Shown: positions 50,487 to 58,084 of the stretch, in pieces
Layout of the letters: each line of letters starts with the position of its first letter
Numbering within the stretch: the stretch's first letter is position 1
Assembly: GCA_024644875.1 (NCBI GenBank)
Contig: JAHEGY010000001.1
Span: forward strand, 62,001-126,000
Source of the DNA: Cyclobacteriaceae bacterium
Lineage (GTDB): Bacteria; Bacteroidota; Bacteroidia; Cytophagales; Cyclobacteriaceae
Direction of reading: 5' to 3'
Length of the DNA: 64,000 bases
Position numbers and translations under genes: made by a program
Notes under the pieces: generated by a model
What the model was told of the DNA's origin: nothing
Databases searched by the model: none
The model's input: only the letters and a program-made list of their open reading frames with translations

Positions 50487-51551
50487 ATGATTGACAAGCT
50501 ATTGCTATTTACTAATCAGGAAATTCTCATTTCTGCGACATATATCTTTATATTGTTTGCCAGCATGTATATCAGCCTCAAAAATAATGTACAGCCTATT
50601 ATTACGCTTTTATTACTATTTACTATTTCATTGATTTATCTGGCTATTACAAGTCTTGCAGAAGCCAGCTTTAGTCATTACTTTCCTGGAATTGGATCGC
50701 CGGACGGCCTTTTAATCTTCCCCGGTGTATTCGGAATAATCATTACGATAAGAATTATGAAGGGAATATTCCGCATCCCATACGTGGTTCTTGACAAAAT
50801 ACTGGTTATACTTTTTATATTTTTTGCTTTATTTCAAACAAATGAATTTCTTTTTGACAATAATTTACTGGCCTCCCTGGGATATAAAAAGTCAATTGCT
50901 GCCGGTATTGGGATCATGCAATTCAGCCCTTTACAGTATTCGGCTTCCGTATTTCCCGAGTTGATGTTAAAAGATCCCATTACCTATCTTCTGCTAATAA
51001 CCTTTTCCGTATCGATACCATTCATATATATTTCATCAAAAATAAAATATCCCGGGAATAACCTATTGTTTGCAATGATTACCCTAATGGTCGTTTTATT
51101 TATTATCCTGTTCAAAACGTTTCCCTTTGAATCACCGGTTCTTTACGACAGGATGATGGGGCTTAATGTAATTCAGTGGGGATTAATTTTAACGATGGTA
51201 TTAATGACAGCTTTTTTGTTAGCCAGGGAAAACAACAATGGCCGTCACAAAAGGGAAATCATATTCAAGCCCCCCGGAGATTACAGGATGCTTGTAATTT
51301 ATTTCATTGTATCTTTAATATCGCTTCAGACCGCTTCCCTTCTAAACGGTTTGTATATTAAATTACTATTTACAGGATACTTTATCTTAACCAGTTATAT
51401 CATATTCTATTTTATGAAGAAAATAGAGCGGCATTATATTAAATATGGAACAGTGTCTATCATTATTCTAATTTTTGTATTTTTCCTTATGGCTCAAATT
51501 CCTTCAAATGAGCAAACAGAAGTTGATACTACGGAAATTGCCCTGAAATAA
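50487..51551 (+). CDS. Polytopic membrane protein of unknown function
   Basis: This 354-residue protein has about ten hydrophobic helices spread over its whole length (for example 15-33, 37-57, 75-92, 103-118, 163-182, 193-211, 227-246, 269-288, 292-310, 321-337) with short basic loops. It has a small acidic C-terminal tail (SNEQTEVDTTEIALK). No transporter signature, enzyme motif or conserved charged residue inside a helix was recognised. The AT-rich coding sequence resembles its surroundings, and no gene on the same strand is close, so context gives no hint. It could be a permease-like or lipid-related protein. Confidence 0.75.
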   Translation: MIDKLLLFTNQEILISATYIFILFASMYISLKNNVQPIITLLLLFTISLIYLAITSLAEASFSHYFPGIGSPDGLLIFPGVFGIIITIRIMKGIFRIPYVVLDKILVILFIFFALFQTNEFLFDNNLLASLGYKKSIAAGIGIMQFSPLQYSASVFPELMLKDPITYLLLITFSVSIPFIYISSKIKYPGNNLLFAMITLMVVLFIILFKTFPFESPVLYDRMMGLNVIQWGLILTMVLMTAFLLARENNNGRHKREIIFKPPGDYRMLVIYFIVSLISLQTASLLNGLYIKLLFTGYFILTSYIIFYFMKKIERHYIKYGTVSIIILIFVFFLMAQIPSNEQTEVDTTEIALK

Positions 51552-52619: not shown

Positions 52620-54116
52620 ATGAGGCGAATATTATTATTCATTAGTTTTATTACCATCATTATAACAAGTGATAGCATGGCACAATTATCTGTTTATGGC
52701 ATCTTTGATGGGCAATCTGATATTGGCGACGTGAAAATTGATGGTTCTGTGGCTTACGATAAAGATACCGACGAATATCTTGTCGGAGGATCAGGAGAAA
52801 ATATCTGGTTTAATATTGATGAATTTCACTATCTATGGAAGATTATGGAAGGGGATTTTATCTTATATGCTAAAATGGAATTTGTTGGTGATAATCCTGA
52901 ACCCCATCGCAAAGGGGGCTGGATGATCCGCCAGGGCCTCGATCCTAATGCACCTCATGTATCGGTTACTGTTCATGGTGATGGATTGACGGCTCTTCAA
53001 TATCGTGAAAAGATCAATGGGGAAATGGCTGAGATCCGGGCTTCGGTTAATGGGCCGAACATCATTCAGTTGGAAAGAAAAGGAGATACTTTTACCATGA
53101 AAGTTGCCAATGATGGAGGCCTATTGGAAAAAGTCGGGGAATTTTCCATGGACATGAGTGGAAGTGTTTACGCGGGATTATTTGTCTGTTCACATAATGA
53201 ATATAATTTCCAGCAAATCGTTTTCAACAATGTCAGGATATCAGTACCTGCAGAAGCAGGAAAAGGAAATTCCCGCGAGGGTGTTAGCAGCAGACTGGAA
53301 ATCCTTAATATTGAAACTTTAAACCGGCGTGAAATTTATGCCAAGGATGGCCTATTCGAAGCCCCGAACTGGTCATTTACAGAGCAAAAGTTGTTATTCA
53401 ACGAAGAGGGTAAGCTATATAAAATACCGGTGGCCGGTGGGGAGCCGCAAATGATTGAATCCGGTGAACTCAATAATCTCAATAATGATCATGGGATCTC
53501 TCCTGATGGTAAATGGATTGCTGCCAGCAATGGTGACGAGGGTATTGGGAGCCGCATATACATAATTCCATACGAGGGAGGCAAACCCAAATTGGTCACG
53601 GAACAAGGTCCATCTTACTGGCATGGATGGTCAGCGGACAGCAAGAAACTTGCTTTTGTTGCAGGCAGGGAAATCAGTGATCATTACGACATATACGAGA
53701 TAAAAAGAAATGGAGGTAAGGAAAAGCGACTGACCAGTTCCTACTGCCTGGATGATGGGCCGGATTATAGCCTGGATGGAAAATATATATATTATAACTC
53801 ATGTCAATCCGGGACAATGGAGATTTGGAGGATGAATACAGATGGAGCCGAACAGGTACAACTTACCTCGGATGAGTACCAGAACTGGTTCCCGCATCCC
53901 TCTCCTGATGGCAAATGGATAGCATTTATTTCCTATGTGGATCCTGTGGCCCCCGGTGATCATCCGCCCAACAAAAACGTAATGCTCAGGCTTATGCCCG
54001 TTGATGGAGGAGATATAAAGGTAGTAGCACATCTATATGGTGGTCAGGGAACAATAAATGTACCTTCCTGGTCTCCTGACAGTAAGGAAATCGCTTTTGT
54101 GAGTTACACCTACTAA
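52620..54116 (+). CDS. Exported PD40/TolB-like propeller protein with N-terminal jelly-roll domain
   Basis: This 498-residue protein has a signal peptide (ITSDSMAQ, to about residue 21). A concanavalin-like domain of the DUF1349 type follows (about 22-205; IWFNIDEFHYLWKIMEGDFIL, KGGWMIRQGLDPNAPHV). The TolB-type beta-propeller (about 225-498) has repeats such as HGISPDGKWIAAS, WSADSKKLAFVAG, YSLDGKYIYYNSC and PSPDGKWIAFISY. It is probably a periplasmic binding or scaffold protein, and carbohydrate binding is plausible because the partner gene encodes a sugar-isomerase-like barrel. Its stop overlaps the ancestral stop of the convergent LytTR regulator by a few bases. Confidence 0.86.
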   Translation: MRRILLFISFITIIITSDSMAQLSVYGIFDGQSDIGDVKIDGSVAYDKDTDEYLVGGSGENIWFNIDEFHYLWKIMEGDFILYAKMEFVGDNPEPHRKGGWMIRQGLDPNAPHVSVTVHGDGLTALQYREKINGEMAEIRASVNGPNIIQLERKGDTFTMKVANDGGLLEKVGEFSMDMSGSVYAGLFVCSHNEYNFQQIVFNNVRISVPAEAGKGNSREGVSSRLEILNIETLNRREIYAKDGLFEAPNWSFTEQKLLFNEEGKLYKIPVAGGEPQMIESGELNNLNNDHGISPDGKWIAASNGDEGIGSRIYIIPYEGGKPKLVTEQGPSYWHGWSADSKKLAFVAGREISDHYDIYEIKRNGGKEKRLTSSYCLDDGPDYSLDGKYIYYNSCQSGTMEIWRMNTDGAEQVQLTSDEYQNWFPHPSPDGKWIAFISYVDPVAPGDHPPNKNVMLRLMPVDGGDIKVVAHLYGGQGTINVPSWSPDSKEIAFVSYTY

Positions 54117-54810
54117 ACGGAAAAAACTTTGAATACTTTATCCCGGTAGCTTCTGCCTATCGGGATTTTTTTTATCCCCAGATCAACCGTATTTCCCTCG
54201 ACAGCTTTAACTTTTGCACAGGAATTATATAGGATTTATGGATCCTCATAAACATGCTATCAGGGAGGGATTCCTCGAGATTCTTTAATGAGGCCAGTGT
54301 GATTATTCTTTTTTTGCTTGTATAATAAGATACGTATTCCCTTAATCCTTCAATGTACAGAATATCATCAAGACGGATCCTGTAGATTTTATGATCTGCA
54401 TGAATGGAAATATATTCCTGACCTGAAACGGGGTTTTCAGAATTTTGCTTCAATTTGAACAGTTCAACTGCCTTATTTATGGACTTCATGAATCGTTCAA
54501 ATGAAAATGGCTTAACCAGATAATCAAGGGCATCCAGTTCATAACTTTCTATAGCATATTCAGAATAGGCCGTTGTAAATATCACAATCGGCCTGGAACT
54601 CATAGTTTTCAAAAGATCTATGCCATTAAGATCAGGCATTTGAATATCCGGTAAGATTATATCCAAAGTATCCTTTTCCATATACTCAACTACTTCCAAA
54701 GGATTTTTGACCAGCCCCTTTAATTCCAGAAAAGGAACTTTCGAGATATATTGTTCGAGCAATTCCGTCACCAACTGCTCATCATCTACAACCAGGCAAG
54801 TCAATTTCAT
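54113..54810 (-). pseudogene. LytTR response regulator, frameshifted near the C-terminus
   Basis: The uninterrupted frame (54172-54810, 212 residues) has a receiver (acidic VVDDEQ, phospho-acceptor Asp55 in LPDIQMPD, Lys in DYLVKPFSFERF). A LytTR DNA-binding domain starts near residue 130 (YISIHADHKIYRI, ILYIEGLREYV, SLKNLEESLP, FMRIHKSYIIPVQ). After VQK the frame ends abruptly in KLSREIRLIWG and a stop. In the -1 frame from the A-run at 54212-54215, the DNA reads KVKAVEGNTVDLGIKK then IPIGRSYRDKVF, the canonical LytTR end, to a stop at 54113. Adding one A makes an exact 232-residue protein. No histidine kinase is adjacent. It could be a real loss, a programmed shift or a sequencing error. 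Confidence 0.88.
54140..54173 (+). terminator. Terminator-like hairpin after the PD40 gene, overlapping the LytTR 3' coding region
   Basis: ATCCCGGTAG (54140-54149) pairs with CTATCGGGAT (54157-54166), with one G-U, and is followed by seven T on the plus strand, 24 bp after the PD40 stop. On the minus strand the same bases encode the conserved KIPIGRSYRD end of the LytTR domain, so part of the symmetry may be coding constraint. Confidence 0.65.
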
Positions 54811-54897
54811 ATCAGAATAGTGAATTGGATAATCCTTACAGGAAAGCTTATGAAGGCATTGATGGCTTAAGTGGGCATACTGAAGATCAATTTACAA

Positions 54898-55635
54898 TCA
54901 AGCAGTCTTCATGCCACTATTGATAACATTTCTTGTCTTTTCAATCAGTTGAGGCATGGTTTCCCTGGAATAATCTTTTATGTCAATGGCCGGATGTATT
55001 ATGATCTCAGCCTTACCTGGCAACAAGTTCATGGTGCCGGAAGGAAGAATTTTCCTTGTTCCATTAATGGTTACAGGTAGGATTGGCAGATTCAGGTCAA
55101 ATGCAAACCAGAATGCCCCTTTTTTAAAAGGCAGCATTTCATGGGTCCTGCTTCGGGTCCCTTCCGGAAAAATAACTACAGATGTCCCGTCTTTTATCTT
55201 TAATTTTGCTGAATTTATAGTATCAATGGCGGCCTTGGTACTTGACCGGTCAATATAAATATGCCCACATGCCTGACTGCCAAAACCAACGCCCGGGATC
55301 TTCTTGATCTCTTTTTTCATAATCCATTTAAAATCAATACCCAGGCTGGCATATAACACAATTATATCGTAAGCACTTTGATGGTTTACAACAATTACAT
55401 ATGGTTGTTTAGGATTGATATTTTCTCTCCCTTTTACTTTTACAATAACCGGAGTTAAAATGCAATTCAGTTTAGCCCACATCACCCCTGCCAAAAAATG
55501 ACTGATTTTCTGTGTAGTTAACAGAGAAATAACGACTGCGAGTACCCCAAAAAAAATCGAGTTGACGAGGAAAAAAGGCAGGAGGAGTATCCATTTATAT
55601 AATTGATAGAGGATAATGAATATCTTTTTCATCAA
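54898..55635 (-). CDS. plsC: 1-acyl-sn-glycerol-3-phosphate acyltransferase
   Basis: This 245-residue protein has an N-terminal membrane segment (about 8-40) and the acyltransferase motifs NHQSAYD (His85-x4-Asp90), GSQACGHIYIDR, VVIFPEGTRS (about 153-162) and ILPVTINGTRKI. It acylates lysophosphatidic acid to phosphatidic acid at the inner membrane in phospholipid synthesis. It lies upstream of the LytTR gene on the same strand with an 87-bp gap. Confidence 0.94.
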   Translation of the reverse strand: MMKKIFIILYQLYKWILLLPFFLVNSIFFGVLAVVISLLTTQKISHFLAGVMWAKLNCILTPVIVKVKGRENINPKQPYVIVVNHQSAYDIIVLYASLGIDFKWIMKKEIKKIPGVGFGSQACGHIYIDRSSTKAAIDTINSAKLKIKDGTSVVIFPEGTRSRTHEMLPFKKGAFWFAFDLNLPILPVTINGTRKILPSGTMNLLPGKAEIIIHPAIDIKDYSRETMPQLIEKTRNVINSGMKTA

Positions 55636-55780: not shown

Positions 55781-58084
55781 TCAGTTGGCATTCAAGCCCT
55801 GCTTAATGTGATTGTCCAGTTCAATAATATTTGGTTCATCGGGAAAGCTGGATTTCAATAGTGGCATATAGGCACCGGCTTTTGCAAATGCCCCTTGCTG
55901 TACATATAGAATCACAAGGGCATAGGTAATGTCAATATTCCGTTCATCTATTGCCAGCCCTTTTATAAAAATGTTTTCTGCCTGTTCAATATCTCCTGAC
56001 TGCTGATAAGCCAGACCCAGGTTATAGTATGCCCTCAGGTTATTCGGGTTGATATTTATAGTCCGCTGGAGGTATTCGATCGCTGATTCAATATTGCCGG
56101 TCTCAGCATACAATAATCCCAGAGAATAATAAGCAGGATCATATTGTGGTTCCATCTTTATCACCAGCTTAAACAAATCGATCGCTTCCTGGGTTTTACC
56201 CTGATTATGATACAGATGGGCCAGGTTAATTCGGCCGACATTGAACAGGGTATCAAACCTGATGGCTTTTTTCAAAGCGGTCTCTGCAGCCTCTGGCCTT
56301 CCCTGGCGTTCATTATACCTGGCGATCATAGCCTGGCCACCCGTAAAATCAGCACGCATATCAAGCATAGCCTTATATTCCGGCAAGACTTTTAAATAAT
56401 CTTTCCGGTATTCCTCGCTGAACTGGCTCATGGGAATATCTGTTAAAGCATCCAGAGCCATGGTCCTGACCGATCGATAAGGGTCTCTGAGCAGGGGTGC
56501 AAGATACTGGTAGCGTATTTCTGTAGGAAATGATTGCATTACTTCGGCTACGACATACCTTACTTGCGGAGCGGGATCACCTGCAGCATTAAAGATGGTT
56601 CGGTTGGACAGTTCGGTATCAATAAATCCAAGATACCATACGGCTGTTGCCCTGGCAATCGCCGGTTGCGTTTTGTCGTTGATCAATCTGACCAGATCCG
56701 GGACCGCTTCCTCCGTCCGTGTGCTTCCCAGGCATAAGACATCCGCATAGTTTTTTACCCTTTCCGGACCGTACCATTCCACCACCCAGTCACTGGCCCA
56801 TTGATCCGTGCTGTCAGTATGGCAACTAATACATGCGTTCGGGACACCATATTCAACAGACAGGTCAGGCCTGGGAACCCTGAAACTGTGATCCCTGCGA
56901 TAATCGTTTACCATATAATACCGGCCATCCATATGACAGTTAATACACAGAGCAGCATCCGTGTTCATTTCATGAAAATGGTGTTCGTATATATCATATT
57001 TTTCAGCCTCGTGACATTGAAGGCATAACTTATTCCCTTCATATTTTAATTTGGTCGTATGTGGATTATGACAATTGGTACATTTTACATCCTGGTGATA
57101 CATTTTTGTCTGTATAAAGGAACTGTAAACATAATCCTCCTCCAGGATCTGACCGTCCGGGAAATAAAGGTGATCCGCGAGGATCTCACCCATGTAATGA
57201 TCTTCAAACAATCCATCGTGATTGTAAGCTTCCGTAAACTGAACCCTTCTCGAATGACACCGGGCACATTGGTCCACCTGCTGCTCCGATGAATCTCTTC
57301 GGGTCAAAAACAAATGTTGATATGCATCATATGCATCCGATTCATCATACAGGTCTGAATTTATAAAATCGTTATGCGCTTTGGATGGCCCATGACATGC
57401 CTCGCAGCTAACATTGATTATGGTAAACAAAGTATTGAAAGAATCAGATTCATTGATATAATTCTTTCGGAGATTGGTGGAATGACAATCTGCACATGCT
57501 GTATTCCAATTCATACCGCCGCCTGTCCAGTGTATCCACTCCTTGTTTGAGATCACAAAATCAGGATACAGGTCAAACCACATACTCGAGTCAGTATCCC
57601 AGGCTATTCTCAGGCACTGATACCTTCCCCGTGGAAATTCAACAATATACTGCTGCAATGGCTCCGTTCCGAAGGTATAGAGTATCTCATAATCATGATA
57701 TTCTCCATCATCGCCTTCGGTATTTACCATGAATTTTTTCCCCTGTTTAAAAAATCTGGTATAAACACCATTTTTGAAAAAAGTAACATTATTGAAATCC
57801 CCTTTAATACTGCTGTCAGTGGCAACCATCATAGATTCATCGTGATGGGATCCCAGCCATTCATAATACTCTTTCTCATGGCATTCAATACAGGATTCAG
57901 TTCCAGCATACTGGTTGTCCAGCAAAGCCTTTGCTACTTCAGGTTGAAACGGATCTTCCTCAACTGCCTCAACAGTCTCTGTTCGTTTTTCACAGTGCTG
58001 GAAAAACAAAAATGACTGGATGGAGATCAATAATAGTATGATCAATGTATACGATCTCTTGTTCAACCCAAAAAAATAGCCCAT
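55781..58084 (-). CDS. Octahaem c-type cytochrome fused to HEAT-like and TPR repeats
   Basis: This 767-residue exported protein has a hydrophobic N-terminal signal or anchor (LIILLLISIQSFLFF). It has eight CxxCH haem sites: CIECH (near 65), CADCH, CEACH, CARCH, CTNCH, CLQCH, CINCH and CISCH (near 405). The middle (about 430-560) has HEAT-like helices (VPDLVRLINDKTQPAIARATAVWYLG). At least four TPRs follow (about 600-750; PAYYSLGLLYAETGNIESAI, RAYYNLGLAYQQSGDIEQAE). It should sit in the periplasm or outer membrane and move electrons; the partner or substrate is unknown. Similar cytochrome-TPR fusions occur in environmental Bacteroidota and Planctomycetota. No reductase gene is adjacent. Confidence 0.9.
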   Translation of the reverse strand: MGYFFGLNKRSYTLIILLLISIQSFLFFQHCEKRTETVEAVEEDPFQPEVAKALLDNQYAGTESCIECHEKEYYEWLGSHHDESMMVATDSSIKGDFNNVTFFKNGVYTRFFKQGKKFMVNTEGDDGEYHDYEILYTFGTEPLQQYIVEFPRGRYQCLRIAWDTDSSMWFDLYPDFVISNKEWIHWTGGGMNWNTACADCHSTNLRKNYINESDSFNTLFTIINVSCEACHGPSKAHNDFINSDLYDESDAYDAYQHLFLTRRDSSEQQVDQCARCHSRRVQFTEAYNHDGLFEDHYMGEILADHLYFPDGQILEEDYVYSSFIQTKMYHQDVKCTNCHNPHTTKLKYEGNKLCLQCHEAEKYDIYEHHFHEMNTDAALCINCHMDGRYYMVNDYRRDHSFRVPRPDLSVEYGVPNACISCHTDSTDQWASDWVVEWYGPERVKNYADVLCLGSTRTEEAVPDLVRLINDKTQPAIARATAVWYLGFIDTELSNRTIFNAAGDPAPQVRYVVAEVMQSFPTEIRYQYLAPLLRDPYRSVRTMALDALTDIPMSQFSEEYRKDYLKVLPEYKAMLDMRADFTGGQAMIARYNERQGRPEAAETALKKAIRFDTLFNVGRINLAHLYHNQGKTQEAIDLFKLVIKMEPQYDPAYYSLGLLYAETGNIESAIEYLQRTININPNNLRAYYNLGLAYQQSGDIEQAENIFIKGLAIDERNIDITYALVILYVQQGAFAKAGAYMPLLKSSFPDEPNIIELDNHIKQGLNAN

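Follow-up and report, generated by a model that had tools for sequence, protein, structure and literature searches.

Results

A LytTR Response Regulator Gene With Its End Out of Frame

The window, a 64 kb stretch of a Cyclobacteriaceae genome, carries a minus-strand response regulator gene between an acyltransferase gene and a PD40 gene. The features of the locus are:

52620-54116, plus strand: downstream neighbour encoding a PD40 beta-propeller protein, tail to tail with the regulator gene (Pfam; colinear in the same-genus genome G001)
54113-54211, minus strand: -1-frame tail encoding the family-typical LytTR end (translation, Pfam, tblastn)
54172-54810, minus strand: frame-0 ORF of 212 aa, with a receiver domain (residues 6-111) and a truncated LytTR domain (residues 141-202; profile positions 2-63 of 98)
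54205-54215, minus strand: frame break, within or adjacent to the A-run 54212-54215 (frame switch in tblastn, orthologue alignment)
54646-54651, minus strand: Pro54-Asp55, with Pro for the conserved Leu directly before the phosphoacceptor Asp55 (homologue alignment)
54811-54897, no strand: gap of 87 nt to the upstream acyltransferase gene, without a LytS-type kinase gene (ORF list, neighbour comparison)
54898-55635, minus strand: upstream neighbour of the acyltransferase family, PF01553 (Pfam; colinear in G001)

Frame 0 runs on the minus strand from an ATG at 54810 to a TAA at 54174-54172, and its product ends in ...IIPVQKLKLSREIRLIWG* with the stop at 54172. A PF00072 receiver is found in this protein with 75.1 bits (Pfam); the acidic pair, Asp55, the Thr-Thr-Ala block and the Lys-Pro motif are all present in the alignment, though Leu54 is replaced by Pro. 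The LytTR domain (PF04397) is incomplete in the translated frame, where frame 0 alone scores 56.7 bits. Joining both frames with an X at the junction raises the score to 68.4 bits and extends the match to profile positions 2-96 of 98. The -1 frame yields VKAVEGNTVDLGIKKIPIGRSYRDKVFKVFSV* and ends with a stop codon at 54113-54115, which is overlapped by the stop of the PD40 gene.

The entire 64 kb window was searched with orthologous proteins using tblastn. Residues 1-203 of the orthologue L040 match frame -2 at 54810-54205, and its residues 201-229 match frame -1 at 54214-54128 with 58.6% identity (E = 1.3e-6). The orthologue L039 gives an equivalent two-frame match, with E = 3.2e-5 for the tail. 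The family resemblance of the out-of-frame tail is thus greater than chance would give.

A preliminary description of this DNA had proposed that one A is missing from a homopolymer and that the LytTR end continues in the -1 frame to a stop at 54113. The stretch 54113-54810 is 698 nt long, leaving a remainder of 2 modulo 3 that one added A would fill, and positions 54212-54215 read TTTT on the plus strand and AAAA on the minus strand. The course of the -1 frame is borne out by translation, tblastn and the gain in Pfam score, and when aligned in both frames, the LytTR proteins L040 and L039 each match across the two.

The base change has to fall between the -1-frame stop near 54236 and the frame-0 stop at 54172. 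Homology in tblastn confines the break to about 54205-54214, and we place it in or beside the A-run because the orthologue match changes frame there. Slipped mispairing in this four-base run would be a simple origin.

All Complete Homologues Are Read in One Frame

We collected 127 homologues, of which 126 are complete; the remaining one, truncated at a contig end, lacks the end block. Every complete homologue is encoded in a single reading frame. The truncation had also been offered as a possible natural form of the protein; this is ruled out, as none of the 126 complete homologues stops there and the sole apparent case is the contig-end cut. Judged by the two-frame match and the absence of truncated complete homologues, the window gene carries a disabling indel relative to its intact orthologues.

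The proteins L039, L040, L041 and L010, from LytS/LytTR pairs of Cyclobacteriaceae and other Bacteroidota, share the receiver and LytTR architecture and are 54-58% identical to the window protein over residues 1-203. Their pairs are complete and the regulators lie beside a PF06580 kinase, whereas the window regulator is frameshifted and alone. In the tree it clusters with L010, L011, L039 and L040, with SH-aLRT support of 87, which is not strong.

Predicted State of the Protein

In the model predicted for L040 (pLDDT 89.9), the strands at residues 202-206, 209-212 and 215-218 and the helix at 221-231 all come after the break. On this model, the translated product of the window gene is predicted to keep the receiver and to end before the three closing strands and the C-terminal helix of LytTR. 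With these elements missing, proper folding and DNA binding are not expected of the truncated product. Going by the family in general, the lost end would be the counterpart of the region of AgrA that holds the Arg233 loop. In Staphylococcus aureus AgrA, Arg233 lies in a C-terminal loop and is needed for DNA binding (PMC11424843). A PDB sequence search gave receiver-domain matches, and no LytTR structure for mapping of DNA contacts was among the matches listed.

The receiver itself carries two unusual residues. At position 54, which falls at the end of strand 3 in the predicted fold, none of the 127 homologues has Pro and 114 have Leu (90% Leu). Val14 is likewise unseen in the 127 homologues, in a column that is 94% Ala. 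A unique radical change at a conserved column is found in only 4 of the 128 sequences. The proline before the phosphoacceptor suggests that selection may have weakened on the receiver too. We take this as only a hint, since the rare-residue count of the window protein is 3 and the median is 2, and on the same ground a general relaxation of selection is not supported.

The Partner Kinase Is Absent From the Locus

In all 11 of the closest orthologous loci, the regulator is directly preceded by an ORF of ~320-400 aa. Pfam searches with ten of these ORFs (all but the one at L044) identified every one as a PF06580 (LytS-type) kinase. No adjacent PF06580 kinase gene is found at the window locus. Eight PF06580 kinases are encoded in the window genome, all of them away from this contig and each adjoining other LytTR genes, and a protein search of this genome with the orthologous kinase as query matched only those eight. 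A kinase remnant at the locus was considered, and none was found by this search. Some response regulators function without an adjacent kinase. Two more LytTR genes of the window genome are located at contig ends (G000:C154:681-968 and G000:C134:1-177); the C134 gene is truncated at the contig end and has its kinase.

Two further observations concern the neighbouring genes. A 10-pair hairpin followed by a T-tract at 54140-54166 on the plus strand resembles an intrinsic terminator for the PD40 gene (52620-54116), with 0.8 such sites expected by chance in the scanned region against the one seen. It sits within the antisense of the tail codons of the broken regulator and, if real, could help to keep the tail bases. 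At 55781-58084 on the minus strand, a 767-aa protein combines multihaem CXXCH cytochrome, HEAT and TPR regions, and G001 has a different gene there.

Comparison With a Genome of the Same Genus

In G001, the one same-genus genome compared, the acyltransferase and PD40 genes are adjacent within a colinear stretch, with about 66 nt between their stops. The regulator is absent between them; this genome is 87% complete, and the site itself is covered. A regulator remnant in the G001 spacer was looked for, and the search hit nothing but the homologous end of the PD40 gene. The LytTR genes of G001 are placed elsewhere in the tree from the window regulator. The difference may reflect either a loss in G001 or a gain in the lineage of the window.

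Elsewhere along the colinear stretch, a membrane protein without a Pfam match (50487-51551 in the window, L155:6498-7679 in G001) has kept its place beside colinear genes. It is only ~23% identical to its counterpart, against 45-82% for the neighbours, pointing to a fast-evolving gene. G001 also has a metallo-beta-lactamase-fold gene (L155:5226-6278) between the isomerase-like gene and the membrane-protein gene, which the window lacks.

Assembly Quality

If the gene were intact in the organism, the consensus could have dropped a base or the assembly could have followed a minority strain. The genome is fragmented into 254 contigs and possibly derives from a metagenome assembly, and the tail is otherwise intact, both of which fit such an error. 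A coding-model scan for frameshifts covered 450 kb of the window genome. When single-base deletions were planted, the scan recovered 55% of those in mid-gene and 14% of those near gene ends. The scan gave six flags. Five of them show the old stop within 29 nt followed by a long ORF, which is the ordinary pattern of overlapping genes with non-ATG starts, and the sixth has no following ORF. An error-ridden assembly was rejected, as no convincing mid-gene frameshift was found in these 450 kb at ~55% sensitivity. The scan did not flag the short tail of the regulator gene, and because its sensitivity near gene ends is only 14%, a second lesion just like this one would usually be missed. The scan bounds the overall error rate but does not limit how many such lesions there may be.

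Eight genes that are colinear between the window and G001 each match in one frame (tblastn), which also argues against frequent errors. A/T runs of at least four bases number 1035 in the window, and those of at least seven number 37; within the regulator gene itself, the runs of 7 and 8 bases sit in the family-like frame. A four-base run is thus not especially error-prone here. The missing kinase and Pro54 are moreover independent signs of decay. A wrong read, which the preliminary description had listed among its explanations, is possible but less likely than damage since the assembly shows no excess of indels; we consider an error of reading or assembly unlikely, though it is the main rival to decay.

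Ribosomal Frameshifting and Phase Variation

Some full-length regulator could be made by leaky or programmed -1 ribosomal frameshifting at the A_AAG of CAA_AAG. A -1 slip at this site would enter exactly the family-like frame. The tetramer A_AAG is documented as a -1 shift site and has also been seen to compensate for a nearby -1 mutation (PMC5009743). The window site resembles these compensatory cases in having A_AAG in phase leading to the tail frame. It is unlike them in lacking conservation and a stimulator structure. The motif NNA_AAG is present in 14% of 21-codon stretches of the window genome. Downstream of the site no stimulatory RNA structure was found, the RNA being not unusually stable (z = -0.61; 52 of 200 shuffles fold as well). 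Among relatives, neither a conserved shift site nor a two-frame layout is seen; all complete homologues are single-frame, and therefore there is no conserved programme. The earlier suggestion of a programmed frameshift thus finds no comparative support, and we regard frameshifting at this site as improbable. Still more improbable is a stable role built on it, in which the break would be tolerated through -1 slips at CAA_AAG that provide a low, roughly constant level of full-length regulator acting as a kinase-free, dosage-limited orphan.

Reversible phase variation, in which slippage of the A-run would toggle the regulator on and off, has a precedent in the reversible poly(A) changes of S. aureus agrA, also a LytTR regulator (PMC6686034), but it is very doubtful here, as a run of only four bases, one among 1035 A/T runs of this length or more, is unlikely to be a phase switch and the kinase is absent.

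Discussion

We conclude that this is probably a LytTR response regulator gene that stands without a partner and is in decay. An ordinary decaying gene is most likely, rather than a new mechanism, because the partner sensor gene is missing as well. A point against this is that, with the exception of two residues, conservation of the protein seems normal.

In the orthologues, the regulator gene comes second in a pair with a LytS-type kinase gene. At this locus the kinase is missing, and the gene is one base short, the simplest cause being slipped mispairing in the short A-run, so that its final ~32 codons stand in the wrong frame. The sequence shows the frame break, the absence of the kinase from the locus, the absence of the gene from G001 and the odd residue; the slippage, the loss of function and the order of events are inferred, and the base is probably truly missing in the DNA of the organism. 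Since the out-of-frame tail is still family-like, the lesion is either young or the base call is wrong. The decay has probably proceeded in more than one step, because the kinase is absent from the locus and a proline precedes the phosphoacceptor. The gene had been described as freshly damaged; damage is the best supported reading, and the word freshly needs to be qualified in view of these same two features.

This type of lesion is already known from agrA. A frameshift in the A-tract at the 3' end of agrA (8A in RN4220; p.Ile238fs) is the most frequent agr frameshift, found in 561 genomes (PMC8768832, PMC10900901). In both genes, an indel of a single base in an A-tract alters the C-terminal end of a LytTR response regulator. 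In agrA the tract is longer, lies at the very end of the gene and has gained a base, whereas the window gene shows a net loss in a four-base run ~32 codons from the end. In addition, the agrA lesion has a reported delayed-activation phenotype, and the window regulator has no kinase beside it.

We recommend annotating the gene as a probable frameshifted pseudogene and not as a natural short form. If our reading is right, the locus would provide a clean example of the decay of a two-component pair, in which the sensor is absent and the regulator is left with an odd receiver residue and its DNA-binding end out of frame.
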